Shown here piece by piece: positions 2,275 through 11,641 of a DNA stretch of 64,000 nucleotides. The stretch covers positions 677,716 through 741,715 of the forward strand of contig NZ_CP044205.1 in NCBI RefSeq assembly GCF_009498235.1, given 5' to 3'. The stretch comes from Candidatus Methylospira mobilis. GTDB lineage: Bacteria; Pseudomonadota; Gammaproteobacteria; Methylococcales; Methylococcaceae. Position numbers and translations under genes: made by a program. Below the pieces are notes generated by a model. That model saw nothing but the letters and a program-made list of their open reading frames with translations, was not told the DNA's origin and ran no database searches. How positions within the stretch are numbered: position 1 is the first letter of the stretch; the number at the start of each line of letters is the position of its first letter.

Positions 2275-3534
2275 ATGACACGGCGCAACATTTTTTATGC
2301 ACAGTCGGGAGGGGTGACGGCGGTAATTAATGCATCAGCCTGTGGTGTGATCGAAACGGCGCGGAGTTATCCCGAGTGTTTCGGGAAAATCTATGCCGGG
2401 CGTAACGGCATAGTCGGCGCATTGACGGAAAATTTGATTGACACCGGGCTGGAATCCGACGCATCCATAGCAGCATTGCGCCATACGCCGGGAGGTGCAT
2501 TCGGTTCATGCCGCTACAAGCTCAAGAGCATGGATGAGAATCGCACGCAGTTCGAGCGCTTGATGAGCGTGTTCAAAGCGCATGATATCGGCTACTTTTT
2601 CTATAATGGCGGCGGCGATTCCGCCGACACCTGCCTGAAGGTGGCGCGTCTGGCGGACAGTCTTGATTTTCCGATTCAGGCGATTCATGTGCCCAAGACC
2701 ATAGACAACGACTTGCCGCTGACCGATTGCTGCCCTGGTTTCGGATCGGTAGCGAAATATATTGCGATCGCCACGCGCGAGGCCAGTTTCGATGTCGCGT
2801 CGATGTGCGCGACATCGACGCAGATTTTCGTGCTGGAGGTGATGGGACGTCATGCCGGCTGGATAGCGGCGGCCGGCGGGCTGGCGGCGGATGACAGGCA
2901 TGATCTTCCCATCGTCATCCTGTTCCCCGAGATACCGTTCGATAGCGCCGCTTTCCTCGCTCGCGTCAGCGAAAAAGTAGCGCAATATGGTTATTGTTCC
3001 GTCGTGGTTTCCGAAGGCGTCAAATTACCGGATGGACGATTTCTTGCCGATGCCGGAACGCGCGATGTGTTCGGGCATGCCCAACTGGGCGGGGTTGCAC
3101 CGATGATAGCCGCTTTGATCAAGGATAAACTGGGTTACAAACATCATTGGGCGGTAGCGGATTATTTGCAGCGCGCCGGGCGGCATATCGCGTCTGCAAC
3201 CGATGTCGAACATGCCTATGCCGTGGGGCGCGCCGCAGTGGAACTGGCTTTGGAGGGCAGAAACGCGGTGATGCCGACCATCGTGCGCACAGCTTCCTCA
3301 CCGTATCAATGGGGGCTGGGCAGCGCCGTGCTGGAAGAGGTCGCCAATGTCGAAAAGAAAATGCCGCGCGATTTTATCAGTGTGGACGGGTTTGGCATTA
3401 CGCCGGTCTGCCGGGCTTATTTACAGCCGTTGATTCAAGGGGAGGATTACCCTCCGTTCGTGCAGGGCTTGCCCGATTATGTCCGGCTTAAAAATGTAGC
3501 GGTTACTAAAAAGCTGCCGGTATTCGAACTGTGA
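2275..3534 (+). CDS. pfp: Pyrophosphate-dependent 6-phosphofructokinase
   Basis: Reversibly phosphorylates fructose 6-phosphate (and in methanotrophs also sedoheptulose 7-phosphate or ribulose 5-phosphate) using PPi in place of ATP. The 419-residue protein has the PFK signatures GGGDSADT (112-119), PKTIDND (140-146, catalytic Asp144) and MGRHAGW (190-196). Asp115 and Lys141 stand where ATP-dependent enzymes have two glycines; this pair is the accepted marker of PPi use. A good ribosome-binding site precedes the ATG. The next gene, 37 bases downstream, is an H+-pyrophosphatase homologue, the same order reported for Methylococcus capsulatus, so the two are probably one transcript that handles cellular PPi. 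Note that the neighbouring pyrophosphatase here looks catalytically degenerate. Confidence 0.95.
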   Translation: MTRRNIFYAQSGGVTAVINASACGVIETARSYPECFGKIYAGRNGIVGALTENLIDTGLESDASIAALRHTPGGAFGSCRYKLKSMDENRTQFERLMSVFKAHDIGYFFYNGGGDSADTCLKVARLADSLDFPIQAIHVPKTIDNDLPLTDCCPGFGSVAKYIAIATREASFDVASMCATSTQIFVLEVMGRHAGWIAAAGGLAADDRHDLPIVILFPEIPFDSAAFLARVSEKVAQYGYCSVVVSEGVKLPDGRFLADAGTRDVFGHAQLGGVAPMIAALIKDKLGYKHHWAVADYLQRAGRHIASATDVEHAYAVGRAAVELALEGRNAVMPTIVRTASSPYQWGLGSAVLEEVANVEKKMPRDFISVDGFGITPVCRAYLQPLIQGEDYPPFVQGLPDYVRLKNVAVTKKLPVFEL

Positions 3535-3571
3535 GACTTACAACAATAATAAATAAAACAGAGGAACCACT

Positions 3572-5701
3572 ATGCCCCGCAAACTGTTGGATTCAACCCG
3601 GCAATGGATTGTTACAATTCTCAGTGATCGCCGTAACCGCAATCTGGCGGTTATCGGTCTGATAATAACCGTTATTATCGGTATCGAAGAAAGCTGGGGC
3701 AGCGCTTTTGCTTTTCTGTCCGCATTGCTGGCATTGCTGGAGTGCCTGAATACGCTGGATTGGCTGCACAGCCGGCCATCCGCGAACGGGTCATTGCAAG
3801 GCGCCGTTCAGGCGATTCAACAGGCGGCGGACGCCTGTTGGCGGCGTTTATACAAAACCCTGGCGGCTGTGGCCGCGTTGCTGCTGCTGCCGGTAGCCTG
3901 GCTGCTGGACTGGGATGTCGCAGGAGGCTTCGCCGCCGGTTCGATACTGTCCGCGCTGGCGGGATATCTGGGCCTTACGGTATCGATACGCAGTCATGGC
4001 CGCGCCGCCCAGGCTGCGCAGCAGGGCTTGCCGGCGGTTTTTGGCGTTGTGTTTAAAGGCGCTGCGGTAACCGGTTTGCTGGTGGCTGCGCTGGGTCTGC
4101 TGGGCGTCGCCGGCTGCTACGCAATTCTGACTCTGCTTGGCTCCGAGGAGCCACTGAGCGCATTGGTAGGTTTTGTCGCGGGCGCTTCGCTGGTTTCTAT
4201 TTTTGCACGTGTGTGCGGCGGCATCATCAGCAAGGCTGCGGATATTGCAGGCGATGTTTCCGGACAACCGACGACCGACTCCCCTGCGCTGGATTTGCGT
4301 AATCCAGCCTCAATCACTCAACGCTTGGGAGAGAGTATACGCGATGGCGTGGGTATGGCCGGGGACTTGTTCGAAACCTATACTGCGACCCTGATGGCGA
4401 CGATGCTGCTCGCAGCCATACTCACCGGGGGGCTGGAATCGGCGGTCGCTTTTCCGCTGTTGCTTGGCGGCGCCTCGCTGTTGGCAAGCGTCGTAGCGCT
4501 GGCATCGGTGCGTCTGGAAGAAGGGCACATACTCGCCGCCTTGTTACGCATCGTTCTGGTTGCGGCCGGACTGTCCTCGCTGACGTTTTATCCGCTGTGC
4601 CTGCTGACTTTTGGCGGAGGTATGCAGATGGGTTCGGAACATGTCTCCGCTCATGGCGTCTATTTCGCGGCGCTGACCGGTTTCGCGCTCAGCGCCGCGC
4701 TGGTGGCGCTGGCCGGGTATTACACCTCGGCCAGCTACGCTCCGTTACGTTCCGTGGCGGTTGCAGCGCGCGGCGGCATTGCAAATTTATTCACGGCGGG
4801 GCTGGTGCTCGCAATGAGGTCGACGCTATTGCCGATTCTGGCGGTTTGCACGGCAATCTGGGCGGCGCATGCTTTTGCCGGTTTGTTTGGCGTTGCGGTG
4901 GCCGCAACTGCAATGCTGTCGTTAACGGGGCTGGTGGCGGGGCTGGATGTTTTTAACCCGATCGCAGCCAATGCGGGCTATATCTCCGAATTGGCCGATA
5001 CGCCTGCCGCAGTACGACATGCGGCTCGGGAAATCGCGGCTGCCGGCCGCGCTCTGCAGGCATTGACGCGTGGCTATGCGCTGGGTGGCGCGGCGCTGGC
5101 CGCCGTGGTTATTTTTGCCGATTACACCGATTTTCTGGCCGAAACCGCAGGTTTCGTGCTGCTCGATTACCGGGTGGTCGTCGGTTTATTGCTGGGCGCG
5201 CTGATTCCCTATCTATTCGTTGCCTTGTTGATACCCGCAGTCAATCGGCCGGCGGCTGAACTGGTAAACGAGGTGCGCCGTCAATGGCGTACCCGCCCGG
5301 GTATTTTCGATCGAACCGATACGCCCGAGTATGCGCGCGCTGCGGATCAACTGACGCGTTTGTCGCTGCAGGAAACGGTATTGCCTGTGTTACTGCCCAT
5401 TTTGATTCCGATAGCCGCAGGATTTTTATTGGGAGCCGAAGTATTGGGTGGTTTGCTGCTCGGCGCATTGGTGACCGGGTTGTTGTTGGCAATAACGTTG
5501 AGTACTGCGGGCAGCGTTTGGGGCAATGCCAGAAAATATATCGAAGAAGGGCATTACGGCGGCCAGGATTCGGAGGCGGCCAAAGCAGCGTCGACTACCG
5601 ACGCCGTCGGTGCTCCTCTGAAGGATGTGGTCGGACCCGCGCTGGGCGTAATGATAAAAGCGGTCAGCATAGTCGGGTTGTTGATTGCTCCGTTGCTATA
5701 G
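3572..5701 (+). CDS. Membrane H+-translocating pyrophosphatase homologue with altered active site
   Basis: 709-residue multi-spanning membrane protein clearly related to HppA; the C-terminal stretch with KYIEEGHYGG and the GMAGDLFETY block align with classical enzymes. The PPi/metal site is nevertheless eroded. The hallmark DVGADLVGKVE reads DIAGDVSGQPT (224-234): Asp224 and Asp228 stay, but the Lys and Glu are Gln232 and Thr234. In the NVGDNVGDC block the first Asp is Glu254 and the second stays as Asp258. TDN of the third site is AAN (Ala466), WDNAKK is WGNARK (Gly651), and GDTVGDPxKD is TDAVGAPLKD (Asp677 and Asp685 stay, Ala681 replaces Asp). The frame is intact, so the protein is presumably made. 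It follows pfp by 37 bases. It may bind PPi without pumping, or act as a partner subunit; loss of activity is my inference. Confidence 0.85.
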   Translation: MPRKLLDSTRQWIVTILSDRRNRNLAVIGLIITVIIGIEESWGSAFAFLSALLALLECLNTLDWLHSRPSANGSLQGAVQAIQQAADACWRRLYKTLAAVAALLLLPVAWLLDWDVAGGFAAGSILSALAGYLGLTVSIRSHGRAAQAAQQGLPAVFGVVFKGAAVTGLLVAALGLLGVAGCYAILTLLGSEEPLSALVGFVAGASLVSIFARVCGGIISKAADIAGDVSGQPTTDSPALDLRNPASITQRLGESIRDGVGMAGDLFETYTATLMATMLLAAILTGGLESAVAFPLLLGGASLLASVVALASVRLEEGHILAALLRIVLVAAGLSSLTFYPLCLLTFGGGMQMGSEHVSAHGVYFAALTGFALSAALVALAGYYTSASYAPLRSVAVAARGGIANLFTAGLVLAMRSTLLPILAVCTAIWAAHAFAGLFGVAVAATAMLSLTGLVAGLDVFNPIAANAGYISELADTPAAVRHAAREIAAAGRALQALTRGYALGGAALAAVVIFADYTDFLAETAGFVLLDYRVVVGLLLGALIPYLFVALLIPAVNRPAAELVNEVRRQWRTRPGIFDRTDTPEYARAADQLTRLSLQETVLPVLLPILIPIAAGFLLGAEVLGGLLLGALVTGLLLAITLSTAGSVWGNARKYIEEGHYGGQDSEAAKAASTTDAVGAPLKDVVGPALGVMIKAVSIVGLLIAPLL

Positions 5702-6011
5702 CAGGCATGTATGTTTTTTTCAGAAATCCCTGTCTTTTTGATAAATTGCTTGAGATGCGCGAGGAGGCTGTCATACCCGCCGTGAAGCGGAGTTTCAGCG
5801 CCATGACGAGTGGATTCAAGACCGGATTACTCCGTCGCGCATCCCTGCGGTTTGGGCTGCGCTCCGCTCCGCACTACGTGCGTTTAAACTCGATCCGGTT
5901 GACTTTGTTCGGTCATCTCCCCGCTGAATGACAGCTATGACTATAGGATCGGGGGAATAATTTCGCTAATCAAGAATCACTAAAACCATTAAAAACTGAC
6001 AGGTGGTAACT
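5702..6011. other. Intergenic region before the vgrG island
   Basis: 310 bases separating the pyrophosphatase homologue from the first vgrG gene. An open frame here has no recognisable domain and is probably not coding. AGGTGG just before the ATG at 6012 is a plausible ribosome-binding site. I see no terminator hairpin with a T-run and no convincing promoter. Confidence 0.35.
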
Positions 6012-8375
6012 ATGGTAGAAAACGATGATTCGCTATTTTCCAACCGCCGCTACGCATTCAGCGTCGACGGGCTTTCCCCGCAGTCATTCGAAGTGGTGCG
6101 TTTTGACGGAGAAGAGGCTATGTCGACGCTGTACCGCTTCGATTTGCTGCTGGCGTCCACCGACAGCGATATCGACGAAGGCGCGCTGATAACCCAGACC
6201 GCGCAATTCAGCCTGAATGACGGCGTCGAAGGCGGGCATCCTACCGTTTATCGCGGCCTGGTGCAGTCGTTTATCTACCAGTACCAGATCAGCGGCTGGA
6301 CCTTTTATCGCGCCACGCTGACGCCTAAATTGTGGTTGCTGGATACATTCTACCTGTCCGAAATTTATCTGGAAAAGACGCGCCCGGAGATTTTCCTGAC
6401 CATCCTGAATAATGCCGGCTTCAGCTTCGATGATTTCGATGTGCGTTTCGTGGAAACGCCGGACCATCCCCAACGCGAATTTGTCTGCCAGTACCAGGAA
6501 AGTTACCTCACGTTTATTGCGCGCTGGCTGGAACGCGTGGGAATTTACTGGTGGTTCGAAGACATGGAAGGCAAGGAAAAAGTGGTATTCAGCAATACCC
6601 TCATGGGACATAAGGAAGAGGCTTTGCTGTTGCATTACCAGCCGCCGGGCGAGCTGGATGCGCTGATCGGCCGGCAGCGCCGTATCCAGAGTCTGGAACT
6701 GGAAGCGCGCAACCTGCCGAAAACCATCGTGATTCGCGATTACAACGAGCAGCGAGCCGGCATGGAAATTATGGGCGCGACGACGGTCGATCCGAACGGC
6801 AGCGGCGAAGTGCACATTTTTGGCGAGCATCTGCAAAACAACGACGAAGCCGCGAAATTTGTCGCATTGCGCGCCGAAGGTTTTCGCTGCCGCAAGCATA
6901 TCTATCGGGGCAGCAGCACGGCGACCGGTCTGCGCTGCGGCGAATTCATGGCGGTGCAGGGCCATCCTCGCAGCCGTTTCAACCAGCGTTACCTGGTGAC
7001 CGGCGTCAGGCATCGCGGTTCGCAGTCCGGCTTGTTGCTGGAAGGACTGAGTGTGCCTGTCGAGATCGATGCGAACCGCTCCGGCGATTTTTACCTGGCC
7101 GAGATCACCGCGATACCCGCCAATGTGCAGTTCCGTCCGGAAATCACCCATCCCTGGCCGAAAATCGAAGGCACGATGACCGGCTTCATTGACGCGGAAG
7201 GCAGCGGTAAATACGCCGAGCTGAATGAAAACGGCGAATACAAAGTGCAGCTGCCTTACGATATTACCGAGAAAAGCGCCAAGAAAGCCTCGGCATGGAT
7301 ACGCATGGCCAGCCCCTACGCCGGCGTGGATGACGGCGGTTCCGGCCATGGCATGCACTTCCCGCTGCATAAAGGCGCGGAGGTACTGCTGTCCTTCAGA
7401 AACGGCAATCCGGACAAACCGGTCATCATCGGCGCCGTGACCAACTCGATCACCCCGAACATGGTGACCAACGAAAACCAGACGCAATCGGTTATCCATA
7501 CAGCCGGCGGCAACAGCCTGGAGTTTCATGATGAGGAAGGTCAGCAGGGCATACATTTCTATTCGCCGACAGCCGATACCCATTTCCAGATAGGGGCATA
7601 TGAGTCGACTCCGAAGAGCGCCGGCGCTGCGGCTTCGGACGGGTTTGATGATACGGGTTCGAGCGGCACGGACGGCGGGAATCCTTCAGTGAATGCCGGC
7701 GAGGCTGGCGTTTCGCTCAAAACCACAGGCACTTTATCGGTAAACATAGGCGGCAAATCCAATACTTCCAATCAGTCCGACTGCGTAACCGAGACAACAG
7801 GAAACAGCGAGGCGGTTACTTTCGGGAATAGCTCGACAATAACGTGGGGATCAAGCAATTCAGTAACCGGTGGCGCAACCAACTCCGTGTGTCTGGCAAC
7901 CAATACGGCCGCATCGATAGGTATAACAACGGGGCTTAATCTGGGAGGGAGCCTGAGCATCGCTCTGGGGGGGAGTCTGAATATCGCCACGCCTTGGGTC
8001 TATCAAATAGGACCGGACGCAGTCACATTATTCGATAAGAAAACCGATGTGGCAACTGAGACCATTACAACTGAAGCTCCCGTAATTGCAAATAATGCAA
8101 CTACATCCATTACAAATATGACCCCTCAATTATCGAGTTTTGCGACAGATATTATTAATATTGCGGAGACTTCCATTTCAACTGAAGCTCCCGCTATAAA
8201 TATTACCGGGAAGCTTGGTATTGAGGGAGACACCACAATTACCGGCGCGGTTCAAGTCACCGGCGATACGGAAATGGCTGGGGCGCTCGAAGTGAATGGC
8301 GCTACCACGCTTAACGGCGATTTAATGGTGGATGGCGTATCCACATTCTCCGGGGTTGCCAGCTTTTTTGCCTGA
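6012..8375 (+). CDS. vgrG: VgrG1, type VI secretion spike protein with beta-repeat tail
   Basis: Trimeric spike that caps the T6SS tube and punctures target cells. The 787 residues fall into a gp27-like part (about 20-375), a gp5-like OB fold (about 380-480; HPWPKIEGTMTGF, GMHFPLHKGAEVLL, KPVIIGAV) and a long Thr/Ser/Gly-rich tail from about 520. The tail ends in repeated short units such as GALEVNGATTLNGDLMVDG, which look like a trimeric beta-helix of the phage tail-fibre type. The start at 6012 has AGGTGG upstream and gives MVENDDSLFSNRRYAF, matching the two paralogues. No toxin domain is evident in the tail, so it probably carries cargo through the adaptor and PAAR-like proteins encoded next. 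Most of the N-terminal two thirds is nearly identical to vgrG2. Confidence 0.95.
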   Translation: MVENDDSLFSNRRYAFSVDGLSPQSFEVVRFDGEEAMSTLYRFDLLLASTDSDIDEGALITQTAQFSLNDGVEGGHPTVYRGLVQSFIYQYQISGWTFYRATLTPKLWLLDTFYLSEIYLEKTRPEIFLTILNNAGFSFDDFDVRFVETPDHPQREFVCQYQESYLTFIARWLERVGIYWWFEDMEGKEKVVFSNTLMGHKEEALLLHYQPPGELDALIGRQRRIQSLELEARNLPKTIVIRDYNEQRAGMEIMGATTVDPNGSGEVHIFGEHLQNNDEAAKFVALRAEGFRCRKHIYRGSSTATGLRCGEFMAVQGHPRSRFNQRYLVTGVRHRGSQSGLLLEGLSVPVEIDANRSGDFYLAEITAIPANVQFRPEITHPWPKIEGTMTGFIDAEGSGKYAELNENGEYKVQLPYDITEKSAKKASAWIRMASPYAGVDDGGSGHGMHFPLHKGAEVLLSFRNGNPDKPVIIGAVTNSITPNMVTNENQTQSVIHTAGGNSLEFHDEEGQQGIHFYSPTADTHFQIGAYESTPKSAGAAASDGFDDTGSSGTDGGNPSVNAGEAGVSLKTTGTLSVNIGGKSNTSNQSDCVTETTGNSEAVTFGNSSTITWGSSNSVTGGATNSVCLATNTAASIGITTGLNLGGSLSIALGGSLNIATPWVYQIGPDAVTLFDKKTDVATETITTEAPVIANNATTSITNMTPQLSSFATDIINIAETSISTEAPAINITGKLGIEGDTTITGAVQVTGDTEMAGALEVNGATTLNGDLMVDGVSTFSGVASFFA

Positions 8376-8434: not shown

Positions 8435-11400
8435 ATGAAAACAATTAAGGAACTCGATCATATTGTGTTCAGGCGGCCCCTGGGGCTGAACAATGGCTTA
8501 TGGTTATCGGTCGCGGTGGGGAGCTTTTTTCACCTGGACGAACCCGAAAAAACCGGCACATCCATCGAGCTATGGAAGCTCGTCGCCGAGACGCTGGGCG
8601 AGGGCGCGATACTGGATGGTGCCAACCCCAAGCCGGTGGGCGAGTTTATGGTGTGCGGCGCCTGCTGGTCGGCATCGGGTGCGCCGACAGCCTCTTCCGA
8701 AGTTCAAGCCGGCGTCGGGAAAGTCTGCAAACGGCTTACCGTTTACGGCGACCGCGAATGGCTGCCGCCCGGCAGCGAATCCCCGTTGCGAATTTCGGAG
8801 CCCAAACCCTTTGTGAGCATGCCGGTCGACTGGGCGCATGCCTATGGCGGGGAAGGCTACGCGCTCAACCCGGCCGGCCTGGGCGTCAAACCTCAGCCGC
8901 CGTTTGCAAGCTGGCCGTTGCCCAACATCGAAAACGCCGCGACTCCCCGTTCTTCCGCAGATCAGACACCGCCTGCAGGCTTCGGCATGATCGACGCCAA
9001 GAACCCGCTTCGTCGCCGGAATATGGGTACTTACGACCCGGGCTGGCTGGAAAACCGCTGGCCTTACTATCCGGATGATTTCGATCGCAGCTACTTCAAT
9101 TGCGCGGCAGCGGATCAGCGCCTCGAAGCCGGTTTTTTCAATCCCGGCGATCCGATTGCGATCCACAACATGCATCCTGCTAAATCAGAGTTGCAGAGCC
9201 GATTGCCGCATCTGCGCCATCGGGCGTTTATCGTACAACAACAGGGCGGCAAGGAGGTTTTCCTCGAAGCGCCGTTGAGCATCGACACGGTATGGCTGTG
9301 GCCGGATCGCGAGCGCGGGCTGGTGCTGGCGCGCGGGATGTTTCCGATAGCCGATGACGAGGCCGATGATGTCAAGCTGCTGTTTACGGTGACCGAGCCG
9401 CTGTCCGACCCTCCGTTATCTGTTAACGAATGGTATGAAAAGCTCCAGTGCCGTCTGGCGCGCAAGGTGCCGTTCGATTTGCCGCCGCAGATTCCCGATA
9501 AGGATGAAGCGCTAAAAAATGCCGCCGCCAAGCTCGAATCGCTGCCGGACGAACTGCGCAAATTGAAGGCCGATAGCGATTCCTCATCAGCGCTGCCGGA
9601 CGTCAGCGCGGAAAAAATGGAACAGGAAATTCTGCAGGACGAAGCTAAAATTGCGGCATTGCTGGAAAATCCTGCTTATGGCACCGCCTTGCAGGTCAAC
9701 GCGTTGCGCAAGGCCATCAAATCGCGCCGCGCCGGGGCGCAGGGGTTCACCAGGCAGGAAGAGGTGGAGAAGCTGGTGGCCGTCCCTTTTGATATCGAAC
9801 TCCCGTTGACGCAGATGCGGGCTCAGTTGCAGTCGCTCAACACCGGCAACCCGCAAAAATACGCGGAACTGGCTGCCGGGCTGGATAGGGCCGAAGAACG
9901 AGTCAGAGGTTTAAAGGCGAAAGCGGCCGCCGCCCAACAGCGTGTACTGGACAACCCCGGCAAGAGCCCCGCCGAATTGCTGATCGAAACCGCGCAGGAT
10001 TTGCTGCAGCGGCGGGACCAATTGATCGAGGAGCTGAAGCAGTTGCGGGAATCGCTCAAAACCGATGGTTTCTCGATTCTGCAGCGTGAAATGGCGTCCG
10101 GCGAAGTGCAGCGGATAGAGCTCCGCTTGAAACAGGTCGGCCCGAAGCTGGAAGCTTTGACCCGCAACGCCGCACAAAACCAAGCGCAAAAAGATGAAGT
10201 ACTGAACCGTCTGGTCGAAATGAGCGAACGCGTGGCCAGGCGTCAGCCGTGGTTCGCTGAACAAACGGCTGAGTTGGACCTCGCCGCACTGATAAAGCAA
10301 ATCAGGCAGGAAAAGCTGGCCGAAACCCGGTCTTTGCTCGATGTGCAGATGCCTGCGGGGGTTAAAGCGCCCGACTTGGCGGCGGAGATCGAAAAGACCT
10401 TAAAAGCGCGGGAGGAAGCCGGGCCTGATCAGGCGCCGGATTTTTCCAGAATGCTGGATGAAATGCCGCCCGAGGCAATGGCGAAAATCCCTCCGGCAGA
10501 GCTTCAAAAACTGAAGGATCTCATGGCCGGCGCCAACAAACGCATGGCTGAGTTGAACGAGAAAAAACCCGACGGCAAACTGGATTTGGGAAAATATCAT
10601 CCGTCCCAGAAAGTAATGACGCGCGAAACTATTAGGCAAACGGTGGCGGAAGGCGGATCTTTGGCGGGGTGCGATTTTACCGATCTCGATTTGTCGGGGC
10701 TGGATCTTGCCGGCGGGTGCTTCGAGGACGCGCATTTCGTCAGAACCAATCTGCAGAGTGCGCGTTTCAACGGGGCTAAATTAAACGGCGCGAATTTCGA
10801 TGCCGTGGATGCGGGCGAAGCCGATTTCAGCGAGGCCAACCTGGAAAAAAGCCGGTGGCTGAATAAGTGCGTGGCGGACAAGGCGCGCTTCGATCAGGCT
10901 CGGGCGAGCGGGATGTATGTGCAGGGTTGCAGTTTCAAACAAAGCGATTTTTCCGGGGCGAATCTTGAATCGGCTGTTTTTATAAAATCGGAGCTGGATC
11001 AGGCCGGTTTCCATAAGGCGCAAATGAAGAAGGCGGTGCTGAGCGAAACCAGCGCTACGGCGTGCGATTTTTCCGCTTCAGCCTGGAGCAACGCGGTGAT
11101 CAAGCATTCCTGCATTGCATCTTCTTCGTTCGAAGACTGCCGTTCCCCGAAAATGCTGATTTGGAACAGCGACGCCAAAGAGCTCAAAGCCGGCAGGGCG
11201 ATGCTGGATCGCTTTACCGTCGGTGGAGCGGGAAGCCGTCTGGACGGCAGCTGTTTCGATGAAGCCACGCTGACGCACACCAGCCAGCTCAATATTTCGG
11301 CGCAACGGGTCAGCGCGCGCCGCGCCATTCTGGATCGCGGCTATTTTCTGAAAGTGGATATGTCCGGTTCCGACTATTACGGCGCGCGTGCGCCAGGCGC

Positions 11401-11641
11401 GCGGTTGACGCGCTGTATGCTCAGCGAGGTCAACATGGGCGCAATCAACCTGATGAGCGGATCTTTGCGCAAATCCGGGTTTGCAAAAACCGATCTTTCG
11501 GCGAGCTGCTTGTACGCCGCCGAGTTTTATCAGGCCAGGTTCGTGGAAACACGGCTGGATGGGGCTTACACTGCGGGTTCCGGGTTAACCGCGAAACAGC
11601 GTTTGGCGGCGGCGCGATCGCATGACGAGGAGAAAAATTAA
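8435..11641 (+). CDS. DUF2169 T6SS-associated protein with coiled coil and pentapeptide repeats
   Basis: 1068-residue protein. The N-terminal third (about 15-310) is a DUF2169 domain, a family found beside vgrG and PAAR genes and thought to act in loading T6SS effectors. Residues about 345-720 are rich in Ala, Glu, Lys, Leu and Gln with helical heptad character, so a long coiled coil is likely. From about 740 to 1050 there are pentapeptide repeats of the A(D/N)LxG type (LSGLDLAGGCF, FNGAKLNGANF, DFSGANLESA), which form a right-handed quadrilateral beta-helix. Two bases separate it from the PAAR-like gene, so translation is probably coupled. No enzymatic motif is visible. It may be an adaptor, or the pentapeptide part may be cargo; the sequence does not decide. 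Confidence 0.85.
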   Translation: MKTIKELDHIVFRRPLGLNNGLWLSVAVGSFFHLDEPEKTGTSIELWKLVAETLGEGAILDGANPKPVGEFMVCGACWSASGAPTASSEVQAGVGKVCKRLTVYGDREWLPPGSESPLRISEPKPFVSMPVDWAHAYGGEGYALNPAGLGVKPQPPFASWPLPNIENAATPRSSADQTPPAGFGMIDAKNPLRRRNMGTYDPGWLENRWPYYPDDFDRSYFNCAAADQRLEAGFFNPGDPIAIHNMHPAKSELQSRLPHLRHRAFIVQQQGGKEVFLEAPLSIDTVWLWPDRERGLVLARGMFPIADDEADDVKLLFTVTEPLSDPPLSVNEWYEKLQCRLARKVPFDLPPQIPDKDEALKNAAAKLESLPDELRKLKADSDSSSALPDVSAEKMEQEILQDEAKIAALLENPAYGTALQVNALRKAIKSRRAGAQGFTRQEEVEKLVAVPFDIELPLTQMRAQLQSLNTGNPQKYAELAAGLDRAEERVRGLKAKAAAAQQRVLDNPGKSPAELLIETAQDLLQRRDQLIEELKQLRESLKTDGFSILQREMASGEVQRIELRLKQVGPKLEALTRNAAQNQAQKDEVLNRLVEMSERVARRQPWFAEQTAELDLAALIKQIRQEKLAETRSLLDVQMPAGVKAPDLAAEIEKTLKAREEAGPDQAPDFSRMLDEMPPEAMAKIPPAELQKLKDLMAGANKRMAELNEKKPDGKLDLGKYHPSQKVMTRETIRQTVAEGGSLAGCDFTDLDLSGLDLAGGCFEDAHFVRTNLQSARFNGAKLNGANFDAVDAGEADFSEANLEKSRWLNKCVADKARFDQARASGMYVQGCSFKQSDFSGANLESAVFIKSELDQAGFHKAQMKKAVLSETSATACDFSASAWSNAVIKHSCIASSSFEDCRSPKMLIWNSDAKELKAGRAMLDRFTVGGAGSRLDGSCFDEATLTHTSQLNISAQRVSARRAILDRGYFLKVDMSGSDYYGARAPGARLTRCMLSEVNMGAINLMSGSLRKSGFAKTDLSASCLYAAEFYQARFVETRLDGAYTAGSGLTAKQRLAAARSHDEEKN

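Follow-up and report, generated by a model that had tools for sequence, protein, structure and literature searches.

The locus examined here raises the question of whether a full-length gene for a membrane pyrophosphatase (mPPase), lying directly behind the gene for a pyrophosphate (PPi)-dependent phosphofructokinase (pfp), still encodes a PPi-driven pump. It stands in the window, the whole 64,000-nucleotide stretch of the Candidatus Methylospira mobilis genome that was analyzed (contig NZ_CP044205.1, G+C 54.9%), to which all positions refer. By homology and predicted fold its product is an mPPase, and the alignments indicate that it lacks the catalytic hallmark of a functioning pump, so we describe it as a pseudo-mPPase. 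We consider it fairly probable that this syntenic orthologue of the pfp-linked proton-pumping pyrophosphatase (H+-PPase) is a pseudoenzyme that no longer hydrolyzes PPi and is retained for its membrane core. The two genes are as follows.

2275 to 3534, + strand: pfp, PPi-dependent phosphofructokinase (PF00365 match, motifs)
3572 to 5701, + strand: putative mPPase-like pseudoenzyme, 709 aa (open reading frame, PF03030 match, alignment, structure model)

The mPPase frame begins with ATG 37 bases downstream of pfp and contains zero internal stops, and its product matched PF03030 with 529.6 bits (cut-off 29.7) over profile positions 2-645 of 645, which places it in the mPPase family. This agreed with the initial annotation, which had described a full-length mPPase with intact frame and fold directly following pfp, the fold being known by prediction. 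To describe the active site, 32 positions across active site, funnel and gate were scored; Vigna radiata numbers were counted from the alignment with the window protein, and helix numbers were taken from the available part of a review (PMC6882861) and by counting. In an alignment with homologues from the genome_contigs set, the window protein differed at 14 of the 32 positions. Six of these had been named from the sequence earlier, and all were found again: Gln232 (K261), Thr234 (E263), Glu254 (D283), Ala466 (D507), Gly651 (D691) and Ala681 (D727). The eight others are Ala239 (E268), Leu240 (D269), Gln250 (D279), Arg493 (N534), Gln496 (12.46, Lys in the 80 homologues), Arg500 (K541), Arg654 (K694) and Gly692 (N738). 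They fall in the following segments, all placed by alignment.

4232 to 4345, + strand: residues 221-258, loop 5-6 and start of helix 6, with K261Q, E263T, E268A, D269L, D279Q and D283E
4967 to 4969, + strand: Ala466 replacing D507 of the metal site
5048 to 5071, + strand: residues 493-500, helix 12, with N534R, K12.46Q and K541R (K12.50R)
5522 to 5536, + strand: residues 651-655, with D691G and K694R; N692 and K695 kept
5600 to 5647, + strand: residues 677-692, with D727A and N738G (16.46); D723, K730 and D731 kept

The first segment keeps K250, D253, D257, D270 and D287 and has the length seen in intact enzymes. Over the whole protein R5.50, K5.58 (K250), D253, D257, D6.43 (D287), D6.50, E6.53, D11.50 (D500), D723, K16.38 (K730), D16.39 (D731) and K16.50 are unchanged. 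The conserved PPi/Mg site of a working mPPase was thus not found, and the cage for Mg and PPi appears largely dismantled. The active-site Asp, Asn and Lys are described as completely conserved in the available part of a solved-structure paper (PMC10897367), and mutation of K12.50 in the Vigna enzyme was reported, in the part of PMC5150537 that was seen, to abolish both hydrolysis and pumping. Since the cage residues are gone, we infer that PPi hydrolysis at a useful rate and PPi-driven pumping have been lost. The earlier view that the protein is not a proton pump is upheld to this extent: the changes at 14 of the 32 scored positions make a functioning pump driven by PPi very unlikely.

Standard enzymes of the family had been said to keep these residues, and the alignment bore this out: all 80 homologues retain the usual residue at each of the 14 changed positions wherever they cover it (the rows of L039 and L061 end early). 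A working pump would also be expected at this place. Outside the window genome, 29 loci carry pfp on the fetched stretch, and their mPPase retains the scored site where covered, except L112, which reads Asp at N738 and Glu at K742, at the end of its match with the window protein. In the alignment with pfp-linked homologues that the initial annotation had proposed, the window protein stood apart. Sequencing error or misalignment was rejected as the source of the changes, as the frame is intact, the changes spread across several motifs, and far lower-scoring mPPases keep the site. Nine mPPases of 812-877 aa reach only 243-268 bits to the profile and keep all scored catalytic residues except E263, where they carry Ile, Phe or Val (with Ala at 12.49). 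Divergence alone was rejected on the strength of these nine and of the ordinary rate of the adjacent pfp. The window PFP is 70-76% identical to 11 orthologues, and one of these, L085, is 73-83% identical to the ten others, showing that the adjacent pfp is not fast-evolving.

The family resemblance is nevertheless strong enough for automatic naming. The protein passed the NF001960 equivalog model 'sodium-translocating pyrophosphatase' with 548.6 against a cut-off of 546, and the 12 other models listed with it all remained under their cut-offs; a pump name would therefore be assigned despite the broken active site. It carries Gln496 at 12.46 and Thr499 at 12.49, and thus falls outside the K+-independent H+-PPase subclass, which is defined by Lys at 12.46 and Thr at 12.49 in the part of PMC10897367 that was available. 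The predicted structure of the 709-aa protein, built with an alignment of 40 intact homologues and so biased toward the family fold, had a pLDDT (predicted local distance difference test) of 85.2 and a predicted template modelling (pTM) score of 0.87. When this model was searched against the PDB, all 36 matches at E <= 0.001 were mPPase chains, with template modelling (TM) scores of 0.75-0.88 by query length, which is consistent with the 16-helix mPPase fold.

The membrane part of the protein showed a different pattern. The following residues of the gate region are kept, placed by alignment except for Ser206, whose number was counted from R242 = 5.50.

4187 to 4189, + strand: Ser206 (S5.43), gate residue
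4208 to 4210, + strand: Arg213 (R5.50, Vigna R242)
4364 to 4366, + strand: Asp265 (D6.50, Vigna D294), gate residue
4373 to 4375, + strand: Glu268 (E6.53), gate glutamate
5657 to 5659, + strand: Lys696 (K16.50, Vigna K742), gate residue

In the gate set S5.43, D6.50, E6.53, S/T6.54, N/D16.46 and K16.50, five positions are kept and N16.46 has become Gly. The charged funnel residues, as listed in the part of PMC6882861 that was seen, are kept or conservatively changed (D6.39 to Glu, K12.50 to Arg). An invariance of at least 98% across 133 intact mPPases was seen in 91 columns, 30 of them charged. The division into intact and altered copies was made on the active site, not the gate, so gate retention was not built into the result. 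Four altered lineages were counted, namely the window gene, the second copies of genus g9, L136 and the g7 pair, with L143 and the split L144 set aside. The window gene retains 62 of the 91 columns, the other mPPase of its genome (L001) 75, g9 52, L136 41 and g7 31. Only 17 columns are common to all four altered lineages: ten glycines, Ser206, Arg213, Asp265, Glu268, Trp650, Ala653 and Lys696. Just four of the 30 charged columns are among them, R5.50, D6.50, E6.53 and K16.50, and of the other 26 the window gene retains 14, g9 nine, L136 nine and g7 four. Under random retention among the 30 charged columns the chance of exactly this four-residue set would be 1 in 27,405, for a pattern that was noticed post hoc. 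Taken together, the alignments point to loss of the PPi/Mg cage with retention of most of the ion gate across the altered lineages.

Such retention could also arise if the gate charges simply pair with each other inside the membrane, so that it tells nothing of ion passage and the protein serves as a structural or partner subunit. This scaffold with purely structural gate charges is a serious rival, which we regard as possible though on balance unlikely: the other columns kept in all lineages are mostly Gly, Trp or Ala, as a scaffold would have it, but the fold seems tolerant of losing the pair, as two intact mPPases (L164, L165) carry Asn at K16.50 and the pair is lost in L143. The earlier suggestion of a 'structural membrane protein' stands to the extent that it is one possible role, alongside the finding that the altered lineages share a charged ion-gate core.

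The window gene is no lone oddity, since altered mPPases recur in its family. In a profile search of 38 family genomes, all had an mPPase match, and reading of the listed copies by residue found an mPPase with a broken active site in 11, the window genome included; 10 of these 11 also carry an mPPase with the full site. All six genomes of genus g9 have altered second copies (L126, L127, L128, L129, L137, L138), and the pfp-clade copy is intact there. G012 carries the altered copy L136, and genus g7 carries L139 and L140; in the tree these two cluster with the window gene, and they have no pfp nearby. In G032, a 70%-complete genome, L143 (1067-3154), an open frame of 696 aa with 27% identity to the window protein, has lost the catalytic and most gate residues; in G006, L144/L179 is an mPPase remnant in two frames (452 + 236 aa) beside a cytochrome cluster. 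A supposed further altered copy in G034 (L148) was rejected; it is the C-terminal part of an L128-type gene (96% over 80 residues, not joined). The stretch from R5.50 to D6.50 measures 53 residues in the window gene, intact L084, L001 and L128; L136 and the remaining g9 copies have 38-46 residues there, and g7 has 15. Loop 13-14 is reduced from 47 residues to 38 in L136, to 24 in five g9 copies and to 12 in g7. The window gene is the least eroded of the altered copies.

Beyond the family, an order-level profile search covered 311 genomes and listed their higher-scoring matches; 38 chosen genomes were searched again, and 18 stretches outside the family were read. Short fragments aside, no altered copies were found in these 18 stretches, the exceptions being single positions: E263 in the nine long mPPases, E263 replaced by Asp in L162, and K16.50 replaced by Asn in L164 and L165. 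The last two, from G108 and G106, are mPPases with a full catalytic set in which Asn replaces the gate lysine. In a phylum sample of 249 genomes, judged by score only, all matches listed had at least 809 bits, and the two copies of the window genome fall below this; nine phylum genomes with lower or unlisted matches had, also by score, high-scoring copies or partial matches.

We next consider whether the altered copies are maintained. The window mPPase is 46-49% identical to 14 pfp-clade orthologues of the family, which are 76-97% identical among themselves (91 pairs), and its end branch in the tree is 2.15 against a median of 0.13. Selection was estimated as the pairwise ratio of nonsynonymous to synonymous substitution rates (dN/dS, NG86 method) over 566-600 codons. 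The ratio was 0.125-0.242 in all 15 pairs of altered g9 copies, those with L128 being near saturation (dS 1.18-1.42), and 0.215 in the altered g7 pair. Intact copies gave 0.034-0.075 in g9, 0.038-0.067 in g15 and 0.029 in the g7 pair, and the neighboring cytochrome in five g9 genomes 0.052-0.163 (458 codons). The altered g9 and g7 copies thus evolve under purifying selection. When the window gene was mutated at random in simulation to 75% identity, a mean of 6.9 stops appeared, and 3 of 300 runs stayed stop-free.

The long end branch would suit a decaying gene, made dispensable by a soluble pyrophosphatase together with PFP and left as an open frame without remaining use. The window genome does hold one PF00719 soluble pyrophosphatase, the remnant in L144 is split, and the cytochrome cluster has no mPPase in the stretches read from G005 and G016. 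Decay is unlikely all the same, given 709 stop-free codons, retained funnel and gate charges, and dN/dS well under 1 in the altered g9 and g7 copies. Altered copies occur in genomes with a PF00719 match (the window genome, six g9) and without one (G012, G006, G016, G032), so soluble pyrophosphatase was not supported as a simple cause of loss. A single loss for all altered copies was likewise rejected, as the tree requires three changes and its well-supported branches force at least two; the window gene and the g7 pair are joined at 95/91 support, are 37% identical, and may have been drawn together by long-branch attraction, a risk of which the tree program itself warns.

The position behind pfp also allows that the protein still binds PPi, as a PPi sensor or as a slow enzyme with fewer metal ions serving the adjacent PFP. 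The protein retains several lysines and the pair D6.43/D16.39 (D287, D731) that activates the nucleophile, and loss of acids would make the pocket more positive, which could suit the bare anion. The cage has lost most of its ligands, and the fetched stretches L171-L179 around the relatives' altered copies showed no pfp, which makes this reading quite doubtful; PPi sensing or gating, as initially proposed, gained no specific support.

The window genome (one contig, 4,703,534 bases) has two PF03030 matches. The canonical hppA sought elsewhere in the genome was not found, as the other mPPase, L001 (L145:5338-7491; G000:C1, about 2820338-2822491), carries D269N, D500G, N534K, K695Q and N738A. L001 is near-canonical, not canonical, and the scored site is thus fully canonical in neither mPPase of this genome. 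According to the available part of PMC10897367, mPPases form homodimers whose subunits communicate, and together with the full-site mPPase present in most genomes with an altered copy this would fit a partner that forms heterodimers with the cell's live mPPase and modulates it. The only other copy in the window genome is 37% identical and itself changed at five scored positions, and we hold such a role to be rather improbable.

In the window genome (L145), G012 (L175) and g9 (L171, L172, L176, L177, L178), the second mPPase is divergent from a three-gene cluster encoding a ~450-aa membrane protein with CxxCH near the C-terminus, a ~400-aa membrane protein and a cytochrome c, the last with two matched stretches in the window genome's copy. 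In G012 and the g9 genomes, the active site of the mPPase beside this cluster is broken. Among the 38 family genomes, 11 have a strong match to the first cytochrome gene and a twelfth has a marginal match, and an mPPase gene or remnant adjoins it in 9 of the 11. A gene for a dynamin-family GTPase is present in L145, L171, L172, L175, L178 and L179, with none found in L176 or L177, and an mmoX-like gene is also present in L171, L172 and L178. In Methylococcus capsulatus, the available part of PMC4831470 places MCA1185-MCA1207 in copper-responding cluster 2 with soluble methane monooxygenase (sMMO), reports a 28.3-fold rise of MCA1187 in sMMO-producing cells, proposes MCA1187 to be a copper-independent 'cbd' oxidase, and suggests that the cluster 2 pyrophosphatase may help to maintain the membrane gradient during sMMO growth. 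Because the neighbor genes match (an MCA1187-like cytochrome, an mmoX-like gene), g9 would be Methylococcus and its altered second copy the cluster 2 pyrophosphatase.

All these results are best accommodated by a hydrolysis-dead pseudoenzyme. The residues that hold the Mg-PPi cage of the pfp-linked H+-PPase have been lost here; the predicted membrane fold, most coupling-funnel charges and most ion-gate residues have stayed; and the retained core would still do something for which the gene is kept, perhaps as an uncoupled ion-binding or ion-passing gate, or as a partner or regulator subunit of another membrane protein, roles that the data do not separate. Our confidence in the several readings overlaps, as a partner and a scaffold would both be versions of this pseudoenzyme. 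Besides the bias of the structure model, several points weigh against it. N16.46 of the gate is gone in three of the four altered lineages, and L143 lacks R5.50, E6.53 and K16.50, yet its frame is open. K250, D253, D257, D287, D723, K730 and D731 remain, and weak activity may persist. Constraint on the altered copies is weaker than on intact ones, by a factor of about 3 in g9 and of about 7 in the single g7 pair; the relatives found for the window gene reach at most 49% identity, too distant for a test of selection on it, and that copy itself may be decaying. Finally, the four altered lineages may share losses. A far more tentative extension, which we think improbable, is that Methylococcaceae-type methanotrophs repeatedly gave up the hydrolytic site of PPi-driven pumps but kept the gate, making of them membrane proteins that handle ions independently of PPi, that the second-copy protein became the ion path of a divergent bd-like cytochrome c oxidase, and that the pfp-linked copy in the window took the same road.

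As for the rest of the locus, pfp is the sole PF00365 match in the genome, and its motifs NGGGDS, PKTIDND and VMGRHAGW recur with small variation in the 11 orthologues. One further element precedes the mPPase start.

3560 to 3565, + strand: AGAGGA, ribosome-binding-like (from sequence, role presumed)

Downstream, a VgrG-like frame (6003-8375) and a 1068-aa frame (8435-11641) look by eye like type VI secretion genes.

A literature search of open-access papers found no account of an active-site-less or inactive mPPase, and a search for mutagenesis data yielded nothing of use. Full-length genes of this kind should not be read as working pumps, and metabolic models that turn PPi into a proton gradient through every annotated hppA would need checking. 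The published gradient-maker model for the copper-regulated M. capsulatus cluster is affected as well, since its pyrophosphatase appears to be an altered copy. Maintained mPPases with a gate and without a fuel site would be natural proteins for probing the gate alone, which bears on the debate about how hydrolysis is coupled to pumping.

Compared with known systems, the window protein resembles pseudoenzymes in general, such as pseudokinases, in having lost catalytic residues and kept the fold. It shares the predicted fold with the solved mPPases of Vigna radiata, Thermotoga maritima and Pyrobaculum aerophilum (TM 0.75-0.88), whereas those bind Mg-PPi and pump and it is without most cage ligands. 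With the pfp-linked K+-independent H+-PPases of the same family (e.g. L085, L086, L095) it has in common the place beside pfp, length, N-terminus, fold and gate residues, but they keep the full scored active site, and it differs from them by 14 changes at 46-49% identity. The apparent g9 counterpart of the M. capsulatus cluster 2 pyrophosphatase near MCA1187 is likewise an mPPase with a broken active site and a kept gate; it comes from a second group of paralogues, located next to cytochromes rather than pfp, with loops shortened in five of six g9 copies.
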